This document shows positions 1-8,376 of a stretch of DNA of 64,000 bases, in pieces. The translations under genes were made by a program, and so were the position numbers. The stretch is from an uncultured Clostridia bacterium (lineage in GTDB: Bacteria > Bacillota > Clostridia > Lachnospirales > Anaerotignaceae): contig CALWEX010000055.1 in the NCBI GenBank assembly GCA_944377425.1, forward strand, positions 1 through 64,000, given 5' to 3'. The stretch's first letter is position 1. Each line of letters opens with the position of its first letter. The notes beneath the pieces are model-generated. The model was not told the DNA's origin. It saw only the letters and a program-made list of their open reading frames with translations, and searched no databases.

Positions 1-368
1 AATATTCCGCTGTCCATGTTGCAGTCCTTAAGTATAATTGTCTGTCGGCCTACTGCGCTGGTTTCGTCCTCGTTAGTTATCTGGATATCAAAATAAATAT
101 CCTCTCCGGTATCTTTGTATCTGCAAAGAAGCTCTCTGAATATTGATGTGTTGTAGTGGAATGTAGCACTGCCTGTACCTTTCCAGCCGGAAGCCTTATT
201 GCCTGTACCTGTTTTTCCCAAAATAGGCACCTCAGTTTTTGTTTTTTCCATTGTGGCCTCAAGGTTAATGGCCTGCATAAAATTATATCTGTTGCCTTCT
301 ATTGTAACAAAACACTCAGCAAGCTTTGCCGAAACGGCATCCTTGCCTTTCATAATAACATTAGACAT
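1..368 (-). CDS. phage tail tube protein, XkdM-like (partial, 3' end outside window)
   Basis: About 122 N-terminal residues are visible of a protein family (PBSX XkdM, DUF2001) that is usually near 145 residues. The product forms the inner tube of a contractile tail. The start is the ATG at 368, preceded by a strong AGGAGG about 8 nt upstream. The early region contains the family-typical phrase GKTGTGNKASGWKGTGSAT, and it follows the sheath gene by 22 nt, the usual sheath-then-tube order. The C-terminus is cut off by the window edge. Confidence 0.86.
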   Translation of the reverse strand, partial: MSNVIMKGKDAVSAKLAECFVTIEGNRYNFMQAINLEATMEKTKTEVPILGKTGTGNKASGWKGTGSATFHYNTSIFRELLCRYKDTGEDIYFDIQITNEDETSAVGRQTIILKDCNMDSGI

Positions 369-390
369 ATATATTCTCCTCCTTTTAAAT

Positions 391-1707
391 TTAAGCTATT
401 TCAACTGTCATATAAAGCTGTGCCATAGCATTTACAACTGTTACTTTGTCACTTACAACAACAGCTTTTTTGCTATCGCCCTGCATAACTGTTACGTCGT
501 CCGGCGCAAAGTTTTCAATGGCACGTATCTCCGCAAGCTGCTGATGATGTTTTACAATATCATTCCAAAGGCTTATTCTGCCTGAGTTGTCATTTGGCAC
601 AACACCCAAATAGCGTGTATTGAATATATCAGCTATATCGTTGGCAATCTGGTCAATAACCCTTATTGTCTGGTTTTCTTTAAAAATATCACCTTTTGTA
701 TCAAATGTAGTTACAAGGCTATTAATGTCTGAAAGCACTCTTACATCAGTGCCTACGTTGTGGAATGTAAACTTACCACCTTCAATAACCTTTTCAAGCT
801 GGCTCTGTGTGTAATCTGTCTTTACTGTAAATTCGCCGTCATACTTTTTATTAAGAAGTGATGCATTTACAGCACAGCTTGCTTCTGCTCCAGTTACCCA
901 GTAAACAAGTGAAGAAACTGGGAATGCTCCTTCTTCCTCAACTTCGTTATTTACATTTATAATGCCTTCATAATCAGCTTCTTTGCTATGTACTACAAGC
1001 TGGAATTTAGCGCCTACCTCATCTCTTAAGTGTTTTGTATAAGAAACATAAAGAGATTTAATTTCATCCTCAGTTGAAACACAGCCTAAAACATTAAAGC
1101 TGTATGCTTCTATTTTGTCTAAGAATGTCTGGTGTGCAGCACCATTTACAGTTCCATTTGTGCCTGAAGCTAAAGGCTCTCCAGCTGTTTCAGCAAGAGG
1201 AGCTTCGTCTTTCCACACAACATAATCATTGTCGTTAAGCTCTGCCGCAGTTGCAACAGCTGACTGTTTGTCCAAAAGAGTTGTATCGTCTATATAAAGT
1301 GAAACGTCAAACTTTTCTTCTTCGTCAGCGTTTGCTTCAATTACAACTTTTAATGCATTACCTCTTGTGCCGCAGTATTTAGCTGTTGCATAAGTATTTT
1401 CCGCTTTAGCTCCGCCGCTTGTAAGTCTGTAGCAGTAAAGAGTTTTTAAGTTTAAAAACATATCTCTTAAGCCTTTTAACTGTTCTGCTGTATAATCATA
1501 GCCGAAAAGTTTAAGGCTGTCTTTCTGGAAATCACCGTTTGTAACTTCGAAAACTTCTCCTTCTGGGCCCCAGTCAAGCTCAAGAGCCATAGCTCCATAA
1601 CCTCTTTCAGAAAGAGTTGCTGATGCTTTGGCCGCTGATATAAAATTGATATAAGAGCCTGGTAAAACCTTATTTTGTGTTAAAAATGTACCTCCACCTA
1701 ATGCCAT
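391..1707 (-). CDS. phage tail sheath protein, XkdK-like
   Basis: This 438-residue protein matches the PBSX/skin-element tail sheath family (XkdK), the contractile outer layer of myovirus tails and R-type bacteriocins. The N-terminus (MALGGGTFLTQNKVLPGSYI) is typical, as is the C-terminal region with a NTRYLGVVPNDNSGRISLWNDI-like phrase followed by a beta-rich end. Length is normal for the family. It lies 1 nt after the small gene upstream and just before the tube gene, so the tail genes are one transcription unit. Confidence 0.92.
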   Translation of the reverse strand: MALGGGTFLTQNKVLPGSYINFISAAKASATLSERGYGAMALELDWGPEGEVFEVTNGDFQKDSLKLFGYDYTAEQLKGLRDMFLNLKTLYCYRLTSGGAKAENTYATAKYCGTRGNALKVVIEANADEEEKFDVSLYIDDTTLLDKQSAVATAAELNDNDYVVWKDEAPLAETAGEPLASGTNGTVNGAAHQTFLDKIEAYSFNVLGCVSTEDEIKSLYVSYTKHLRDEVGAKFQLVVHSKEADYEGIINVNNEVEEEGAFPVSSLVYWVTGAEASCAVNASLLNKKYDGEFTVKTDYTQSQLEKVIEGGKFTFHNVGTDVRVLSDINSLVTTFDTKGDIFKENQTIRVIDQIANDIADIFNTRYLGVVPNDNSGRISLWNDIVKHHQQLAEIRAIENFAPDDVTVMQGDSKKAVVVSDKVTVVNAMAQLYMTVEIA

Positions 1708-1708
1708 A

Positions 1709-1897
1709 TTATTTCACTCTCCTTTTTAAAAATGTTTCAATTCTTTTCTTAGCTTCATCTTTACTTATTTTTTCGTTATCCTGAATAATAACTGTTAATA
1801 AATCCCTATACTGAGCAAATGAATTACTCTTTATAAGCTGTTCTTTAGAAAAAACAGCCTTTTTATTTGCTGTACTTTTTGTTTCTTTTTCTGTCAT
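1709..1897 (-). CDS. small conserved tail-cluster protein
   Basis: A 62-residue, highly charged, lysine-rich protein without a membrane segment. It sits tightly between the tail terminator-like gene and the sheath gene (1-nt gaps on both sides), where clostridial PBSX-like clusters often carry a short protein of this kind. No catalytic motif is visible and I do not know its role; an assembly or regulatory function is only a guess from position. Confidence 0.7.
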   Translation of the reverse strand: MTEKETKSTANKKAVFSKEQLIKSNSFAQYRDLLTVIIQDNEKISKDEAKKRIETFLKRRVK

Positions 1898-1898
1898 A

Positions 1899-2312
1899 TT
1901 AAACCTCCGTTTTTTGTTTCATATTTTCCATAACTTCCTCTGTCTGTTTATTTTTGAAGAAGTAGAAACCATAGCTTACATTAAATATTAAAATTCCATC
2001 GCTAATACTGTATGACATACTTGTTCCCCTTATTAAATCACCGGAAACTGTAATAAGTTCAAGACAGTCAAAAAGTCTTGAACCAATATCATTAATAAAA
2101 TCATTATTGTTTTTTGATAAAAACTGCACCGAAACAGGACTATTTAAAAAATACCTGTTGCCAAGCACCTGTTTTATTTCTGGTTTTAAAACAGAAATAA
2201 AAAAACAAGGTTCATTTAAACCTTGTTCAGCGGTATTTGTATATATGCCGTATTCATCTCCAAACTCATTCTTAACAGCTTCAGCGACGCCTTTTAAAAT
2301 ATCATTAATCAT
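1899..2312 (-). CDS. tail terminator-like protein (XkdJ/DUF6838 type)
   Basis: A 137-residue protein with the layout of the phage tail terminator family found just upstream of the sheath gene in PBSX-like elements (DUF6838). It starts MINDILKGVAEAVKNEFGD and ends in beta-strand-rich sequence. In complete phages this protein caps the tail and joins it to the head. Here it is the first structural gene after the regulators, so the cluster begins at the tail. Family assignment rests on length, position and overall look rather than on a signature motif. Confidence 0.7.
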   Translation of the reverse strand: MINDILKGVAEAVKNEFGDEYGIYTNTAEQGLNEPCFFISVLKPEIKQVLGNRYFLNSPVSVQFLSKNNNDFINDIGSRLFDCLELITVSGDLIRGTSMSYSISDGILIFNVSYGFYFFKNKQTEEVMENMKQKTEV

Positions 2313-2662
2313 TTAAAATACTCACCTAATTTCTTAGCAGCTGCTTTTTAATATCCTCGGTATACTTACATTAGCTTATATTTAATAGATGTAGAGTATT
2401 TTTAATACTTAGAGTTTTATATAAGTTTTAGAATACCGATTTGAACGTTCTTCCTCCTTCTTTTTTAAATATACAAAAGACTTTTTTAATGTCTACGTCA
2501 AAAGACAAATACTAAATTTTCTTTTTGTTCCAACAGTTGTTGGTTTTTAAATTATAAATAATGCTTTTTTAATACTCACTCCCCTCAATGAGCAAACAAA
2601 AAAGAAGCTGAATAATCAACTTCTTTTATTAATGCCTCATCAACTAATTTTTTACAATACCA
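2313..2662. other. AT-rich gap between regulator and tail genes
   Basis: About 350 nt without a convincing gene. A short inverted repeat (CCAAC/GTTGG around 2531-2545) and several TTTTTTAA tracts are present. The late promoter of the tail genes is expected here, since the sigma-like regulator gene ends at its right edge, but no clear sigma-A type promoter on the minus strand could be read. This is the place where head genes would lie in a complete phage. Confidence 0.5.
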
Positions 2663-3094
2663 TTATATAACATCTTTATATGAAATTAAATGCAAGCTTT
2701 CAAAAGATTTTAAAGCTTTGGTATGTAAGTAATGTATGTTCCTGCACGAATAGCTCATTTTATCGGCTATTTCTTCCCAGCTCAAGAAACAAAGATACCT
2801 ATAAGTTAATAAAAGACGTTCAGTTTCATCTGGAATACAGTCGATTTTACCTCGTATTTCAGTTTTTAAATCCACAAGCACATCGATTTTATTATTAATT
2901 AAATTTTCCATATCAATTAACTTAACAATGGTATTTTCAATTCTGTTTTCAGGCGATTTTTGAATTTTATCCCGGCTGTAATCAATACTGCTTATAATTC
3001 GGCTTTGGCGCTTTATATTAGATAGTTCCACTAAGCAGGCATCTATAAACTTATCAAGGTTATACGCTTTTGTTAAATAATCTTTTGCATTCAT
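2663..3094 (-). CDS. phage late transcription regulator, sigma-70 region 4-like (ArpU/RinA/DUF1492 type)
   Basis: A 143-residue protein. The N-terminal two thirds are helical and charged; the C-terminal part (about residues 90-135) reads LLLTYRYLCFLSWEEIADKM then a recognition helix, as in region 4 of sigma factors and in phage late regulators. Start ATG at 3094 with GGAG upstream. Divergent from the repressor and upstream of the tail genes, it is the likely activator of the tail operon. The family is inferred from fold-like sequence and position. Confidence 0.72.
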   Translation of the reverse strand: MNAKDYLTKAYNLDKFIDACLVELSNIKRQSRIISSIDYSRDKIQKSPENRIENTIVKLIDMENLINNKIDVLVDLKTEIRGKIDCIPDETERLLLTYRYLCFLSWEEIADKMSYSCRNIHYLHTKALKSFESLHLISYKDVI

Positions 3095-3506: not shown

Positions 3507-3734
3507 TATTAAAATATTTCCGTTTCGAAAACATATATTGCAAATTTGCAAACAGCAAATTATAATAATTATAAAATATTAGTACTAGCCAAAATCCTTT
3601 TATTTTCTAAATAAAACATGGATTTAATACTGTATTTTTCTGCCAGCTTAAGAGTTAATTTTAAAATTCTTTGTAAATTTATATGAATTATATCGTTTAC
3701 TGCAAATTAAATATCATTGTTCGAGGTGATTAAA

Positions 3735-4361
3735 TTGACTACAGGACAAAGAATGAAAAACAGAAGAATAGAGTTAGGTATAACTGTTCAGGATATTGCT
3801 AAATCTTTAAATATTTCCGTTGCAACTGTTTACAGATATGAAAAAGGTGATATTGAAAAAGTGCCTGGTAAAATATTAGAGCCTCTTGCAAAAATTTTGC
3901 AAACAACGCCAGCTTATTTAATGGGTTGGGAAGATGACCCTTCTTTAATACCTAAAAGCGCAATTCCTGTTGGTGAAATGGTTAACCTGCCTGTTTTAGG
4001 GCGTGTATGTGCCGGATATGGCTGTCTTGCTCAGCAGGAAATTTTGTATTATGAACCGGCAGATGCCAGATATGCTACAGGAGAATACTTTTATCTTTTA
4101 GTAAACGGCGACAGTATGGCACCTGAAATTAAAGAAAATGACCTAGTGCTTGTTAAAAGCCAGACCTCTGTAGATAGTGGTGACCTAGCTGTAGTTATAG
4201 TTGACGGCACAGACGGCGTAATTAAAAAAGTTGTTTATGATAAAACACATATACACCTTATATCATTTAATCCTTATTATCCTGAAAGAGTATTTGAAAA
4301 TTCTGAAGTTCTGCGAATCAGAATTGTAGGAAAAGTAATAAAAAGTGAACGAAGATGGTAA
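3735..4361 (+). CDS. self-cleaving phage-type repressor, HTH_XRE plus peptidase S24 (LexA/CI-like)
   Basis: A 208-residue repressor read from TTG at 3735, chosen because GAGGTGA lies 6 nt upstream; a longer reading from 3717 lacks a site. Residues about 5-60 form an XRE-type helix-turn-helix. The second half is a LexA-like peptidase: the scissile-type Ala93-Gly94 in the GRVCAGYG segment, Ser127 in NGDSM and a Lys at 164/165 in GVIKKV. Such repressors cleave themselves when RecA filaments form, which would release the leftward tail genes after DNA damage. Three operator-like sites lie upstream. Confidence 0.88.
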   Translation: MTTGQRMKNRRIELGITVQDIAKSLNISVATVYRYEKGDIEKVPGKILEPLAKILQTTPAYLMGWEDDPSLIPKSAIPVGEMVNLPVLGRVCAGYGCLAQQEILYYEPADARYATGEYFYLLVNGDSMAPEIKENDLVLVKSQTSVDSGDLAVVIVDGTDGVIKKVVYDKTHIHLISFNPYYPERVFENSEVLRIRIVGKVIKSERRW

Positions 4362-4365
4362 AAAA

Positions 4366-4392
4366 TAAAACCCCTTGATTTTCAAGGGGTTT
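4366..4392. terminator. bidirectional terminator between repressor and tRNA-Leu
   Basis: Arms AAACCCCTTGA (4368-4378) and TCAAGGGGTTT (4382-4392) with a 3-nt loop. An A-run on the left gives T residues for leftward transcripts from the tRNA gene; the rightward U-tract is short. Confidence 0.75.
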
Positions 4393-4396
4393 ACAC

Positions 4397-4480
4397 TGCG
4401 GAAGATGGGACTTGAACCCACACCGCCACTGAAGGGACAGGAATCTGAATCCTGCGCGTCTGCCATTCCGCCACTTCCGC
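4397..4480 (-). tRNA. tRNA-Leu (anticodon CAG)
   Basis: 84 nt, with a seven-pair acceptor stem (GCGGAAG with CTTCCGC), a long variable arm typical of class II tRNAs, GGTTCAAGTCC in the T arm and the anticodon loop TTCAGAT. Discriminator base A. The CCA end is not encoded. The tail element ends beside it, but no att-like duplication of the tRNA end was seen. Confidence 0.96.
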
Positions 4481-4514
4481 ATATTAAATTAAGCTTTAAA
4501 AAGCCTGCCAAAAT

Positions 4515-4543
4515 ATTATACAACATACTAATTCCGCCGTCAA
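4515..4543 (-). promoter_or_regulatory. promoter of tRNA-Leu
   Basis: On the minus strand TTGACG (4543-4538), 17 nt, TATAAT (4520-4515), placing the start about 28 nt before the tRNA. The -35 lies inside the loop of an inverted repeat with arms CTAATTCCGC (4528-4537) and GCGGAATTAG (4562-4571). Confidence 0.8.
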
Positions 4544-4579: not shown

Positions 4580-5773
4580 TTAAAATTTCTTCCATTTTAA
4601 GCTTACTAAGTCATGGCCGCTTACAGCCTTAACCAGTCTGTCACCAAAATCATCACTTAGTATATCGCTTTTATCCAATAATTCAACACCAAACTCAACA
4701 GCTCTTTTGTATGAACCACTTTCAAGGACTTTTTCATCGCTGAAAGCTACAATAATAGCTTTAGAGAACCAGCCGCCTAATCTTTTTCTTTCAAGTACCA
4801 ATTCGTTAATAGCCGCTGTAGTAACATCAGTTAACTTACAGCTTACAAAAACAGGCAAAGAGTTATCAGTAAATATAACATCTATTTCATTTCCTGGCAC
4901 AGATTTATCATCGTATATGTCCCAATCTACCATTGCACCAAGCATAACATCGGTAAATATGCCTGTTTTAACTGCATGTATGTATACAAATAATTCAAGC
5001 CAAACTCCATAATTAATTAAGTATGACTTTTCAAGTGGCGAAGCAAAAGTAAATACTATATGGTTTTTGGAAATATATAAATCTTTAATAAACCCAAGTT
5101 CTTCAAACTTTTTAAGCATTGTGCTGTCAGGATAAACCTCATTTCCGCCTTTAGAGCGAAAAACAGAAACAGCCCTAAGCTCAATATCGTCTTTGCTTGT
5201 GTTGGCCATTGCTTGCTGGATATAAGAACACGTTCTGCGCCACTGCTTTATGTTTTTAAATATGTAGTCGCACATACTAAGTATATCTTCAAATCGGCTC
5301 TCATCAGGCTCACTGTGTGAATTGCCTACAAAGTGCGCCCCTCTTGCAGCTACATAATCGTTAAGTCTCAGAGTTGCAGTAGGTATAAAGTCATTTTTAT
5401 CAAGTATGTTTTCAAGCCTGCCATTTATTATATCAGTATAGAACATTTTAATGTTTGTTTCTATACCGGCTTTAACTCCAGCTACAGTCATAAGCTCGCT
5501 TCCGCCGGTAATATCCATAACACAGTTACCATACTTATTAATTAACATTTTAGTTTTGTTAAATATATCCAGTACGTCACTTATATCAACTGGTTCAGTT
5601 TCAAATATAATATCAGGCAGATGATTTTTAAAACAGTTTTCCAAACTAACAAACCTATTCATGTCAGCAATTTGATTGTCATATAAAAATACTATTCTGT
5701 CTGGTTTAATGGAAAGACACGCCAATATATTTTTTATAGTATCCTTGTCGTAAAACTCAATTTGCGTAAGCAT
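4580..5773 (-). CDS. Card1-like CARF-domain nuclease (DUF1887 family)
   Basis: A 397-residue protein with an N-terminal Rossmann-like CARF domain carrying the ligand-loop signature DITGGSELM (residues 87-95), a middle alpha/beta region, and a C-terminal PD-(D/E)XK nuclease fold: Glu260 in GVWLELF, Asp298 in GNEIDVIF and Lys313 in VSCKLTD. Characterised relatives (Card1/Can2) are switched on by cyclic tetra-adenylate from type III CRISPR complexes and cut DNA or RNA. No cas gene or CRISPR array occurs in the window. It follows ytfJ by 33 nt with its own GGGGAG site, so it is probably co-transcribed with a sporulation gene. Family is clear; in vivo activator and role are unknown. Confidence 0.85.
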   Translation of the reverse strand: MLTQIEFYDKDTIKNILACLSIKPDRIVFLYDNQIADMNRFVSLENCFKNHLPDIIFETEPVDISDVLDIFNKTKMLINKYGNCVMDITGGSELMTVAGVKAGIETNIKMFYTDIINGRLENILDKNDFIPTATLRLNDYVAARGAHFVGNSHSEPDESRFEDILSMCDYIFKNIKQWRRTCSYIQQAMANTSKDDIELRAVSVFRSKGGNEVYPDSTMLKKFEELGFIKDLYISKNHIVFTFASPLEKSYLINYGVWLELFVYIHAVKTGIFTDVMLGAMVDWDIYDDKSVPGNEIDVIFTDNSLPVFVSCKLTDVTTAAINELVLERKRLGGWFSKAIIVAFSDEKVLESGSYKRAVEFGVELLDKSDILSDDFGDRLVKAVSGHDLVSLKWKKF

Positions 5774-5806
5774 ACTGTCTCCCCTTTCGGTTTAGGTTAG
5801 GCTTAT

Positions 5807-6199
5807 TTACTCCTGCTCAAAATCATCGTCTTTACTAAATTCAGCTTCTTTTTTGGCCTTATTAAAAGCCGCGCTGAAATTAAGCTTACTAGCTATAGAA
5901 GGCGCAAGGTCTATAATTTTATTTAACGCATCCTGATTTTTAATATTAATAAGCTGAACATTACCGTTTACAATGGCAATAACAGCATTTGGCGCAACCT
6001 TAGCACCCATCCCGCCGGCACATCCGTCTTTTCCGCCTTTTTCGTTGCCGCCAGCACCCATACCAAAAGTAACTTCTATAAGCGGAATAAGTGTAATTTC
6101 TCCCACTGTTACAGCTTCTCCAACTACTGTTTTAGATGTAATAAATTCTCCTAATTTCTGACAAAGAGCGTTAATGCTTTCATTTACATTTGCACCCAT
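5807..6199 (-). CDS. ytfJ: sporulation protein YtfJ/GerW
   Basis: A 130-residue protein of the spore YtfJ (GerW) family, needed in Bacillus for germination with some nutrients. Visible marks are the central GEITLIPLIEVTFGMGAGG stretch, a Gly/Cys-rich loop (GGKDGCAGGMG) and the VAPNAVIAIVNGNVQLI strand region. The C-terminus is acidic. It follows ytfI by 11 nt, the usual ytfI-ytfJ pairing, and precedes the CARF nuclease gene. Confidence 0.93.
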   Translation of the reverse strand: MGANVNESINALCQKLGEFITSKTVVGEAVTVGEITLIPLIEVTFGMGAGGNEKGGKDGCAGGMGAKVAPNAVIAIVNGNVQLINIKNQDALNKIIDLAPSIASKLNFSAAFNKAKKEAEFSKDDDFEQE

Positions 6200-6210
6200 T
6201 AATAAACACC

Positions 6211-7293
6211 TCAGTTCTTAATAAATAATATAACAGTTCTTCTTACAGGCTTTAATATAATAAAACAAACTGCCGAATACAGTAAATATCCCAGCGTAAA
6301 CCTGCCAGAAAATTCAGCATTTCCTAAAAACATAACATTATCAAAATCTCCTGATACATTAAGGCCTTCTATAAAAAGACCTTTAAATATGCCGCAAAGC
6401 GCCAGCATTAAGCCTGTTCCTGCCGGGTCGCCTACACCAGCTTTAGCATTAATTAAAACCGTTTTAGGCAGTACTGTTTTGCAAAATCGCTTTAAAAACT
6501 TATACAAACCGCCTAAAATTATTTTTTTATCATCCATAGGCAGGTTTAAAAAATATTTAATATTAACTTTATTTTCTGTATCTTCGTTTTGTTCTTCTTT
6601 TTGTTCTTCCTCTTTTAAAACACGCTTATTCTCTGTTTCAGAGTTTTTTTCATTATCTGCATTAAAATTACTTTTATTAAACTGCTCTTTATTTTCTAAT
6701 TCATTTATTTTAACCCGTCTTACAGTAAAATCTTCACTGCTGTGGTCATATTTTATGTTTGAGTATTTGTCCTGCCAAGAAATCTTTTTCTCTGAAACAG
6801 TGTTATTCTCAATCTGCGAAATTGGTTTATTTTCTTTTTTAAATTCAAATTCTTCTGATTTTTTTAAATCAATGTTTTGAGTGCTCTCTTTTGGCTTTTC
6901 TTCAAATATCTCAGATGCTTCTTTTTTATTTTCAAATATATATTTTTCCACATTTTCGGCATCTGTTTCTTTAATATCTTTATATTGCTCAGAAGCCTTT
7001 TTACTGCTTTTATTACCTTCTTTTAAATCCGGCTCACTGCTTAATAATCTTTTGCCAAATATTTTTAAACCATATTGCAGCTCATCATCTTTATAATAAA
7101 CTTTGGCTTTTATTATTCCTAATAAATACGATACATTACCTTTAAAATATGTACCATTGTCATTGCCGCATTTAATATTATACTTAATTTTAGTAAAAAG
7201 CGCCAATAAAGCAAGCAATACCACCAAAGCTATAATACACAGCAGCGCAACTCCTATTATTTTAAGTATAAATAACAATACATTCAATACCAT
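6211..7293 (-). CDS. ytfI: DUF2953 membrane-associated sporulation protein YtfI
   Basis: A 360-residue protein with a long N-terminal hydrophobic segment (about residues 3-33), then a highly charged Lys/Glu/Asn-rich low-complexity middle (about 90-250) and a conserved C-terminal DUF2953 part with GVGDPAGTGLMLALCG and a final hydrophobic stretch. The charged linker is longer than in Bacillus YtfI. Its stop-start junction with the DUF1461 gene upstream is immediate, and ytfJ follows, so these form one operon likely used in sporulation. Confidence 0.88.
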   Translation of the reverse strand: MVLNVLLFILKIIGVALLCIIALVVLLALLALFTKIKYNIKCGNDNGTYFKGNVSYLLGIIKAKVYYKDDELQYGLKIFGKRLLSSEPDLKEGNKSSKKASEQYKDIKETDAENVEKYIFENKKEASEIFEEKPKESTQNIDLKKSEEFEFKKENKPISQIENNTVSEKKISWQDKYSNIKYDHSSEDFTVRRVKINELENKEQFNKSNFNADNEKNSETENKRVLKEEEQKEEQNEDTENKVNIKYFLNLPMDDKKIILGGLYKFLKRFCKTVLPKTVLINAKAGVGDPAGTGLMLALCGIFKGLFIEGLNVSGDFDNVMFLGNAEFSGRFTLGYLLYSAVCFIILKPVRRTVILFIKN

Positions 7294-7971
7294 TTAATCA
7301 CCTGCGCCGTCATGGCGTAATCTCTTAATCAAGTGTATGCTTACAAAAAATATAACTGCCCAAAGTACACTGAAAGTTAAACAAACCCTAACAAAAGTAT
7401 CAACAAAAAAGCTTTCTGGCAGCATATTAATCATTAAACTCTCTCTCGGGTCAAGGAGCCACAAGTCATTATTAAAAAGTACTTCGTGAAATATAATAAA
7501 TGCCTTGTTAAAATTCAAAACAGAAACTCCGGCAAGTATATAAAACAATATGCCTATTAAACCAAAAGAGAAAGTAAAAAACTTTATAAACACAAATTTA
7601 TTCAGCCTGAAAATAATTACAGCACCTAAAGATACTGCAATTAACACCATGCACACTCGTCTTATATTTAATGCAGACTGTACTATATCTTTTACGTCTT
7701 TCATGTGCAGCTTTTCTCTTTCATTAAAAAAAGTGCTGTTTTGAAATTCTTCCTCGGCTTCATCTAAAAGCATATAGTCCAAAAGCAACTGCGCCTCATT
7801 TTCAAGCTTTTCTATACTGTAACCAGTAACTTTATCTATTGAATTTTTTTCAAACTCATAACCAAAATAGTCAATATCGTAAAACGCAGCCATACCAAAA
7901 GATGAAATAAGCAAAAAAATCAATAAAGCCAGACCACATATAAAAGATAAAAAAGCGCTTGTTACTTTCAA
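7294..7971 (-). CDS. integral membrane protein, DUF1461/TIGR01906
   Basis: A 225-residue protein with about five hydrophobic segments: one at the N-terminus (residues 5-30) and four in the second half. The soluble loop contains FNEREKLHMKDVKDIV, the recognisable signature of this family in Firmicutes and Actinobacteria. The biochemical role is not known. It lies between a 100-residue protein (2 nt away) and ytfI. Confidence 0.82.
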   Translation of the reverse strand: MKVTSAFLSFICGLALLIFLLISSFGMAAFYDIDYFGYEFEKNSIDKVTGYSIEKLENEAQLLLDYMLLDEAEEEFQNSTFFNEREKLHMKDVKDIVQSALNIRRVCMVLIAVSLGAVIIFRLNKFVFIKFFTFSFGLIGILFYILAGVSVLNFNKAFIIFHEVLFNNDLWLLDPRESLMINMLPESFFVDTFVRVCLTFSVLWAVIFFVSIHLIKRLRHDGAGD

Positions 7972-7973
7972 AA

Positions 7974-8276
7974 TTATTTCTCCCCTATAAGGTTTTTGCC
8001 TAAGTCAGATAAATTCCATTTTTTGCCTAATGCGTATTTTATAATTTCGCTGTATGTCCTATAAGCGTTGTATTTACCGGAACAAATTCCGACAGCATAC
8101 ATATTTTTATATTCATTGTTTTTAAAATACTCAAAGCTTGAAACTATAATGCTTTTGCTATTTTCGTCAATAAGTATAATATAAACATTAATAACAGGAA
8201 TGTTTCTTTTTAAGCTGTAAACAACCGTATTAATATCATCAATACCGCTTACAAATACATTTTCAATAAAATTCAT
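7974..8276 (-). CDS. hypothetical protein, first gene of the ytfI operon
   Basis: A 100-residue soluble protein that I do not recognise. It alternates hydrophobic and charged residues in a pattern suggesting an alpha/beta fold (VINVYIILIDENSKSIIVSS) and ends with a lysine-rich tail. It precedes the DUF1461 gene by 2 nt and is separated from the transporter genes by about 100 nt, so it is likely co-transcribed with ytfI-ytfJ. Confidence 0.6.
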   Translation of the reverse strand: MNFIENVFVSGIDDINTVVYSLKRNIPVINVYIILIDENSKSIIVSSFEYFKNNEYKNMYAVGICSGKYNAYRTYSEIIKYALGKKWNLSDLGKNLIGEK

Positions 8277-8376
8277 ATCAAACCACCGGCAAATAAAAAC
8301 CTTAAAATATTAAACACATAAAATCTATATTAATTTAGTATATCATAAACATTACTTTATTGCCACTAAGTAGCAT

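Follow-up and report, generated by a model that had tools for sequence, protein, structure and literature searches.

CARF domains serve as sensors of the cyclic oligoadenylates of CRISPR systems. Can2 and Card1 (DUF1887; PDB 7BDV, 6XL1), in which such a domain is joined to a PD-(D/E)xK nuclease, act as ancillary nucleases of type III loci on activation by cA4, and the residues through which Can2 contacts cA4 in common with Can1 are Ser19, Thr42, Lys99 and Tyr118 (PMC7969007, Zhu et al.). The counterparts of these residues in VC1899 of Vibrio cholerae (PDB 1XMX) are Asp9, Asp34, Arg96 and Val115; this orphan has an acidic CARF pocket, retains its nuclease residues, lacks an accompanying type III CRISPR system, is insensitive to cA4, displays only weak, cA4-independent RNase activity, and has been considered possibly degenerate (PMC7969007). 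A further point of reference is the PADLOC profile PDLC01895 (CARF4--CARF_PDDEXK), a defence-related description to which neither a system nor a function is attached.

Here we characterize a card1-like gene in a window of 64,000 nucleotides (the whole stretch of DNA analysed) from an uncultured member of the clostridial family Anaerotignaceae, order Lachnospirales. In the ancestor of this family a gene of the Card1/Can2 type was added behind the last gene of an existing Lit-DUF2953-ytfJ operon, and it is a single-copy core gene, independent of type III CRISPR. We interpret its product, with a probability of roughly 0.7, as a domesticated, stand-alone CARF nuclease that acts independently of CRISPR and is gated by a ligand other than cA4, perhaps for use in the spore or under envelope stress. 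The gene and the elements that define it are as follows.

4580..5773, minus strand: card1-like gene encoding CARF plus PD-(D/E)xK nuclease, 397 aa
5399..5773, minus strand: CARF domain, residues 1-125, to which CARF structures align
4673..5011, minus strand: Card1-type endonuclease domain (PF09002), residues 255-367
4994..4996, minus strand: catalytic Glu260, invariant in 51/51 relatives
4880..4882, minus strand: catalytic Asp298 of the NEID motif, invariant in 51/51 relatives
4835..4837, minus strand: catalytic Lys313 of the SCK motif, invariant in 51/51 relatives

The ORF begins with ATG behind a good ribosome site (GGGGAG) and occurs once in its assembly (G000, 2.4 Mb, 97.7% complete). As in Can2 and Card1, an N-terminal CARF and a C-terminal PD-(D/E)xK domain are combined in a single chain: the Pfam profile Card1_endonuc scored 28.2 bits, above its cut-off, CARF_Card1 scored 22.6 bits, slightly below its own, and PDLC01895 matched the protein over its full length with 493 bits. 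The DITGG signature (residues 87-91) and the three catalytic residues, all of which an earlier note on this DNA had read from the letters, are present, and a search of the alignment for loss of Glu260, Asp298 or Lys313 found none. An AlphaFold model built from 38 family members (mean pLDDT 92) yielded full-length fold matches to VC1899 (Z 31.6, rmsd 3.2 over 359 residues), Can2 (28.8 and 28.3), Cdn1 (27.8) and Card1 (26.8); VIA-align thus placed VC1899 first, and Foldseek and a profile search placed Can2 first.

What distinguishes the protein from Can2 is the predicted ligand pocket, where two profile alignments put Asp9, Asp32, Glu93 and Tyr112 at the Can2 contact positions. The first three are acids, encoded as listed here, with the Can2 contacts taken from PMC7969007.

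5747..5749, minus strand: Asp9, aligned with Can2 Ser19, which contacts a cA4 phosphate; invariant in 52/52 sequences
5678..5680, minus strand: Asp32, aligned with Can2 Thr42, which contacts a cA4 adenine; invariant in 52/52 sequences
5495..5497, minus strand: Glu93, aligned with Can2 Lys99, which contacts a cA4 phosphate; invariant in 52/52 sequences

Lys10, Asp11, Lys14 and Asn15 are likewise invariant in all 52, and position 112, the place of Can2 Tyr118, is Tyr in 26 family sequences and His in 26. Card1, like Can2, has Lys where the family has Glu93. Judged from these residues, four negative charges per subunit (Asp9, Asp11, Asp32, Glu93) should disfavour cA4, itself a tetra-anion; the Asp and Glu side chains could still bind cA4 through cations. 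Since the pocket is both acidic and invariant, the trigger is probably not cA4. Because acids occupy three of the four cA4-contact positions and linkage to type III loci is lacking, the protein should not be filed as a cA4-activated type III effector, in contrast to Can2 and Card1, whose domain arrangement, full-length structure and catalytic residues it shares. In character it most resembles the VC1899-like orphans, of which it has the separation from type III, the acidic CARF pocket and the intact nuclease residues. It differs from VC1899 itself in sequence (about 14% identity), in having Glu93 where VC1899 has Arg96, and in that its pocket is invariant across a family and its gene belongs to a conserved operon.

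That operon and its surroundings comprise the following features.

5807..6199, minus strand: ytfJ/gerW (Spore_YtfJ, 68 bits), adjoining the 5' side of the card1-like gene in 52/52 family loci
6211..7293, minus strand: DUF2953-like (YtfI-like) protein, operon mate
7294..7971, minus strand: TIGR01906/Lit-like membrane protein, operon mate
7974..8276, minus strand: gene for a 100-aa protein, probably the first of the operon
8337..8366, minus strand: candidate extended -10 sigma-A-like promoter, GTGGCA-18-TATACT with TG, by consensus match only
4396..4481, minus strand: tRNA-Leu(CAG), downstream of the card1-like gene
4515-4543: candidate promoter of tRNA-Leu(CAG)
4368-4392: terminator of tRNA-Leu(CAG)

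The gap of 33 nt that the earlier note gave between ytfJ and the card1-like gene is correct (5774-5806), and the linkage to a sporulation operon that it proposed extends well beyond this genome: at every one of the 52 family loci fetched, ytfJ lies directly 5' of the card1-like gene on the same strand. This pertains to relatives lacking type III as well, clear Cas10 being found in only 6/58 genomes. Spacing between the two genes is 28-140 nt at all loci but one, a single species (L055) in which a gap of about 580 nt (582) with no obvious gene inside is the sole break in this tight arrangement. DUF2953 precedes ytfJ in the family loci, usually with the Lit and 100-aa genes also ahead of it, and the gene 3' of the card1-like gene varies (TetR regulator, RimM/TrmD, YchF and others). 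By eye, the sigma-A-like promoter candidate is kept in near relatives. An Rfam search returned tRNAs as its sole matches. To the left of the card1-like gene, at 3-3094 (minus strand) and 3717-4361 (plus strand), lie phage-tail-like genes and an S24/HTH repressor by the tRNA-Leu; the element is incomplete, because base 1 of the window is also the first base of the contig. The adjoining tailocin of the earlier note is, on these phage-tail-like genes, a putative one, and its association with the card1-like gene is local to this genome. In near relatives the junction between the card1-like gene and tRNA-Leu is identical, and the sequences diverge beyond it.

The distribution of the gene was determined in 58 genomes assigned to Anaerotignaceae by GTDB, 37 of them of good quality. 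It was detected in 55 of the 58 and in all 37 good ones, in single copy throughout, with one record representing a split frame. Other Lachnospirales possess the Lit-DUF2953-ytfJ block without the card1-like gene; in several of them YchF follows the block in convergent orientation. Some Anaerotignaceae show the order ytfJ-card1-YchF. The occurrence of the operon without this gene elsewhere in the order points to a single insertion at its 3' end in the family ancestor, followed by vertical descent, which is the simplest history. A protein tree of the card1-like genes, with an uncertain root and two long branches of uncertain placement, recovers the genera with 15 label changes, the minimum possible being 15. 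Estimates of dN/dS from a simple Nei-Gojobori script, comparing the window gene with its two nearest relatives and with dS high in some pairs, were 0.027 and 0.055, alongside 0.045 and 0.065 for ytfJ and 0.018 and 0.043 for nth, and higher values for the operon mates DUF2953 (0.25-0.37) and Lit (0.18-0.21). The card1-like gene is under strong purifying selection.

Outside the family the association with ytfJ was looked for and not found, the homologues occupying other stable sites. Among 393 genomes of the order, seven outside the family matched at E 1e-20, the nearest (L125, 42% identity) not adjoining ytfJ. In a set of 393 genomes of the class, a homologue was detected at E 1e-8 in 49 and Cas10 in 45; both occur in two genomes, on different contigs, where 5.6 would be expected (P about 0.06-0.1). 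We do not claim avoidance of Cas10 across Clostridia from these counts, only an absence of linkage. Many of these solitary clostridial homologues have flanks that are constant within a genus, and most keep Asp at position 9. Lineage-stable sites away from cas genes (L196-L199, L201, L202; L169-L171; L129-L130) include positions beside rplI-dnaB or beside a phosphatidylserine-decarboxylase-like gene, and CRISPR-free CARF-PDDEXK members may be common in Clostridia. In Cas10-bearing Clostridia a CARF nuclease lies within about 3 kb of Cas10 in only two genomes (L216, L217); these are of a different sequence type, longer (460 and 440 aa) and with a TGGQR motif, and are true type III-linked members.

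Two rival explanations are judged improbable. The earlier note had offered, as one alternative, that the protein works in trans with a distant type III locus, and the cA4 that it answers might come from such a locus or from one gained and lost by transfer; the shared fold and catalytic residues of cA4-activated Can2 and Card1 are as this would predict, and six Anaerotignaceae genomes do have type III loci. However, the note's remark that no CRISPR was in sight holds, as far as Cas10, RAMP and Cas1 are concerned, for the whole assembly: the Cas10 search that it proposed gave one weak Pfam match of 23.5 bits, below the family cut-off, which may be a GGDEF-type protein, and RAMP and Cas1 gave no match anywhere. 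The gene is universal in the family, against clear Cas10 (>120 bits) in only six of 58 genomes, a figure that reflects Pfam searches of MAG-grade assemblies. Five of the six type III loci have, within the stretch fetched, a CARF-like gene of their own (start VLFS.VGGHDPI or similar), which was Csm6 in all three tested, and the equivalents of Can2 Ser19, Thr42 and Lys99 are invariant acids. Having searched for Cas10, RAMP and Cas1 in the genome itself and for Cas10 in the 58 genomes of the family and in 393 of the class, we rejected action in trans as very improbable. The protein might instead be a relic "cast adrift" in the manner proposed for VC1899, its fold retained and its regulation lost, as the departure of the pocket from that of Can2 and the feeble activity of VC1899, with its similar acidic pocket (PMC7969007), might indicate; relics decay, however, and here catalytic and pocket residues are invariant over 52 diverse sequences under strong purifying selection, so that we regard this explanation as the least credible of all. 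The CRISPR-independent role in response to another signal, which the earlier note had also put forward, is supported by the gene's place in the family core, by the purifying selection on it and by the acidic pocket of its product.

Within such a role, three uses can be weighed, and our confidences in them overlap: the defence and housekeeping explanations are themselves CRISPR-independent and compete with the preferred reading only at its sporulation step. CARF nucleases are otherwise defence proteins, and solitary homologues are found at many chromosomal sites in other Clostridia, a circumstance that also means that such genes do not generally lie in the spore operon. The protein might thus be a nuclease for abortive infection that is passed on vertically, needs no CRISPR and responds to a nucleotide induced by phage or to some alteration that the phage makes in the cell, although we consider this less likely than not: defence genes usually come and go, whereas this one is fixed at one site throughout the family with dN/dS of 0.03-0.06. 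The SMODS (CD-NTase) cyclase was found in none of the 58 family genomes, which weighs against such a defence role and led us to reject a role as CBASS effector. A housekeeping nuclease in RNA turnover or DNA repair, unrelated to sporulation and merely expressed from a vegetative operon promoter, is a similarly tentative proposition. It accords with the sigma-A-like promoter candidate and with a search by simple patterns in which matches to sporulation-sigma consensus sequences ahead of the operon genes did not exceed chance; it accords less well with a ytfJ linkage that persists in 52/52 loci while the downstream genes vary, and with the presence of SpoIVA in 35 of the 37 good genomes, most of which can therefore probably sporulate. 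Genus g9 is of interest here, as SpoIVA was detected in neither of two genomes (G036 and G037, one of them 68% and the other 92% complete) and G037 keeps ytfJ-card1 (L022), which hints weakly that the role is not one in sporulation alone and offers a possible natural test of a non-sporulation one. The sporulation role raised in the earlier note is suggested only by the operon linkage and is not matched by a sporulation-sigma promoter or by the g9 case. The developing spore of Bacillus subtilis expresses gerW/ytfJ, and germination is unaffected when the gene is lost (PMC4366231), so that ytfJ as a neighbour gives little functional guidance. That a CARF domain has been co-opted outright for development, in a core nuclease that serves the formation or survival of spores and answers an endogenous ligand other than a cyclic oligoadenylate, made by a pathway unconnected with CRISPR or CBASS, is likewise conceivable but doubtful.

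For the domesticated, CRISPR-independent nuclease that we favour, a mechanism may be outlined. The protein would form a homodimer as in Can2, its paired CARF domains creating a ligand pocket that would gate the PD-(D/E)xK domains, and these would cut or nick DNA, RNA or both. The acidic pocket suggests an endogenous, cell-made ligand in place of cA4, which might be a cation or be bound through a metal. The weakest step of this scheme is the use to which the nuclease is put: being co-expressed with YtfJ, it may act while the spore develops or under envelope-linked stress.

The sequence family is already known, as a PADLOC profile for it exists, and close relatives of this protein were very probably in the building set of PDLC01895. 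Its core status, its operon and its pocket do not figure in that profile, and the family-wide core status, the fixed position in a sporulation operon and the invariant acidic pocket are apparently unreported in the openly accessible literature. A gene that is core to a whole family, retained in one operon and encoding a rebuilt yet invariant pocket speaks for an active job of orphan CARF nucleases outside CRISPR, where the best-studied of them, VC1899, had been regarded as possibly degenerate. The search for the missing ligand of these orphan CARF nucleases can now start from a named host group and from individual residues.
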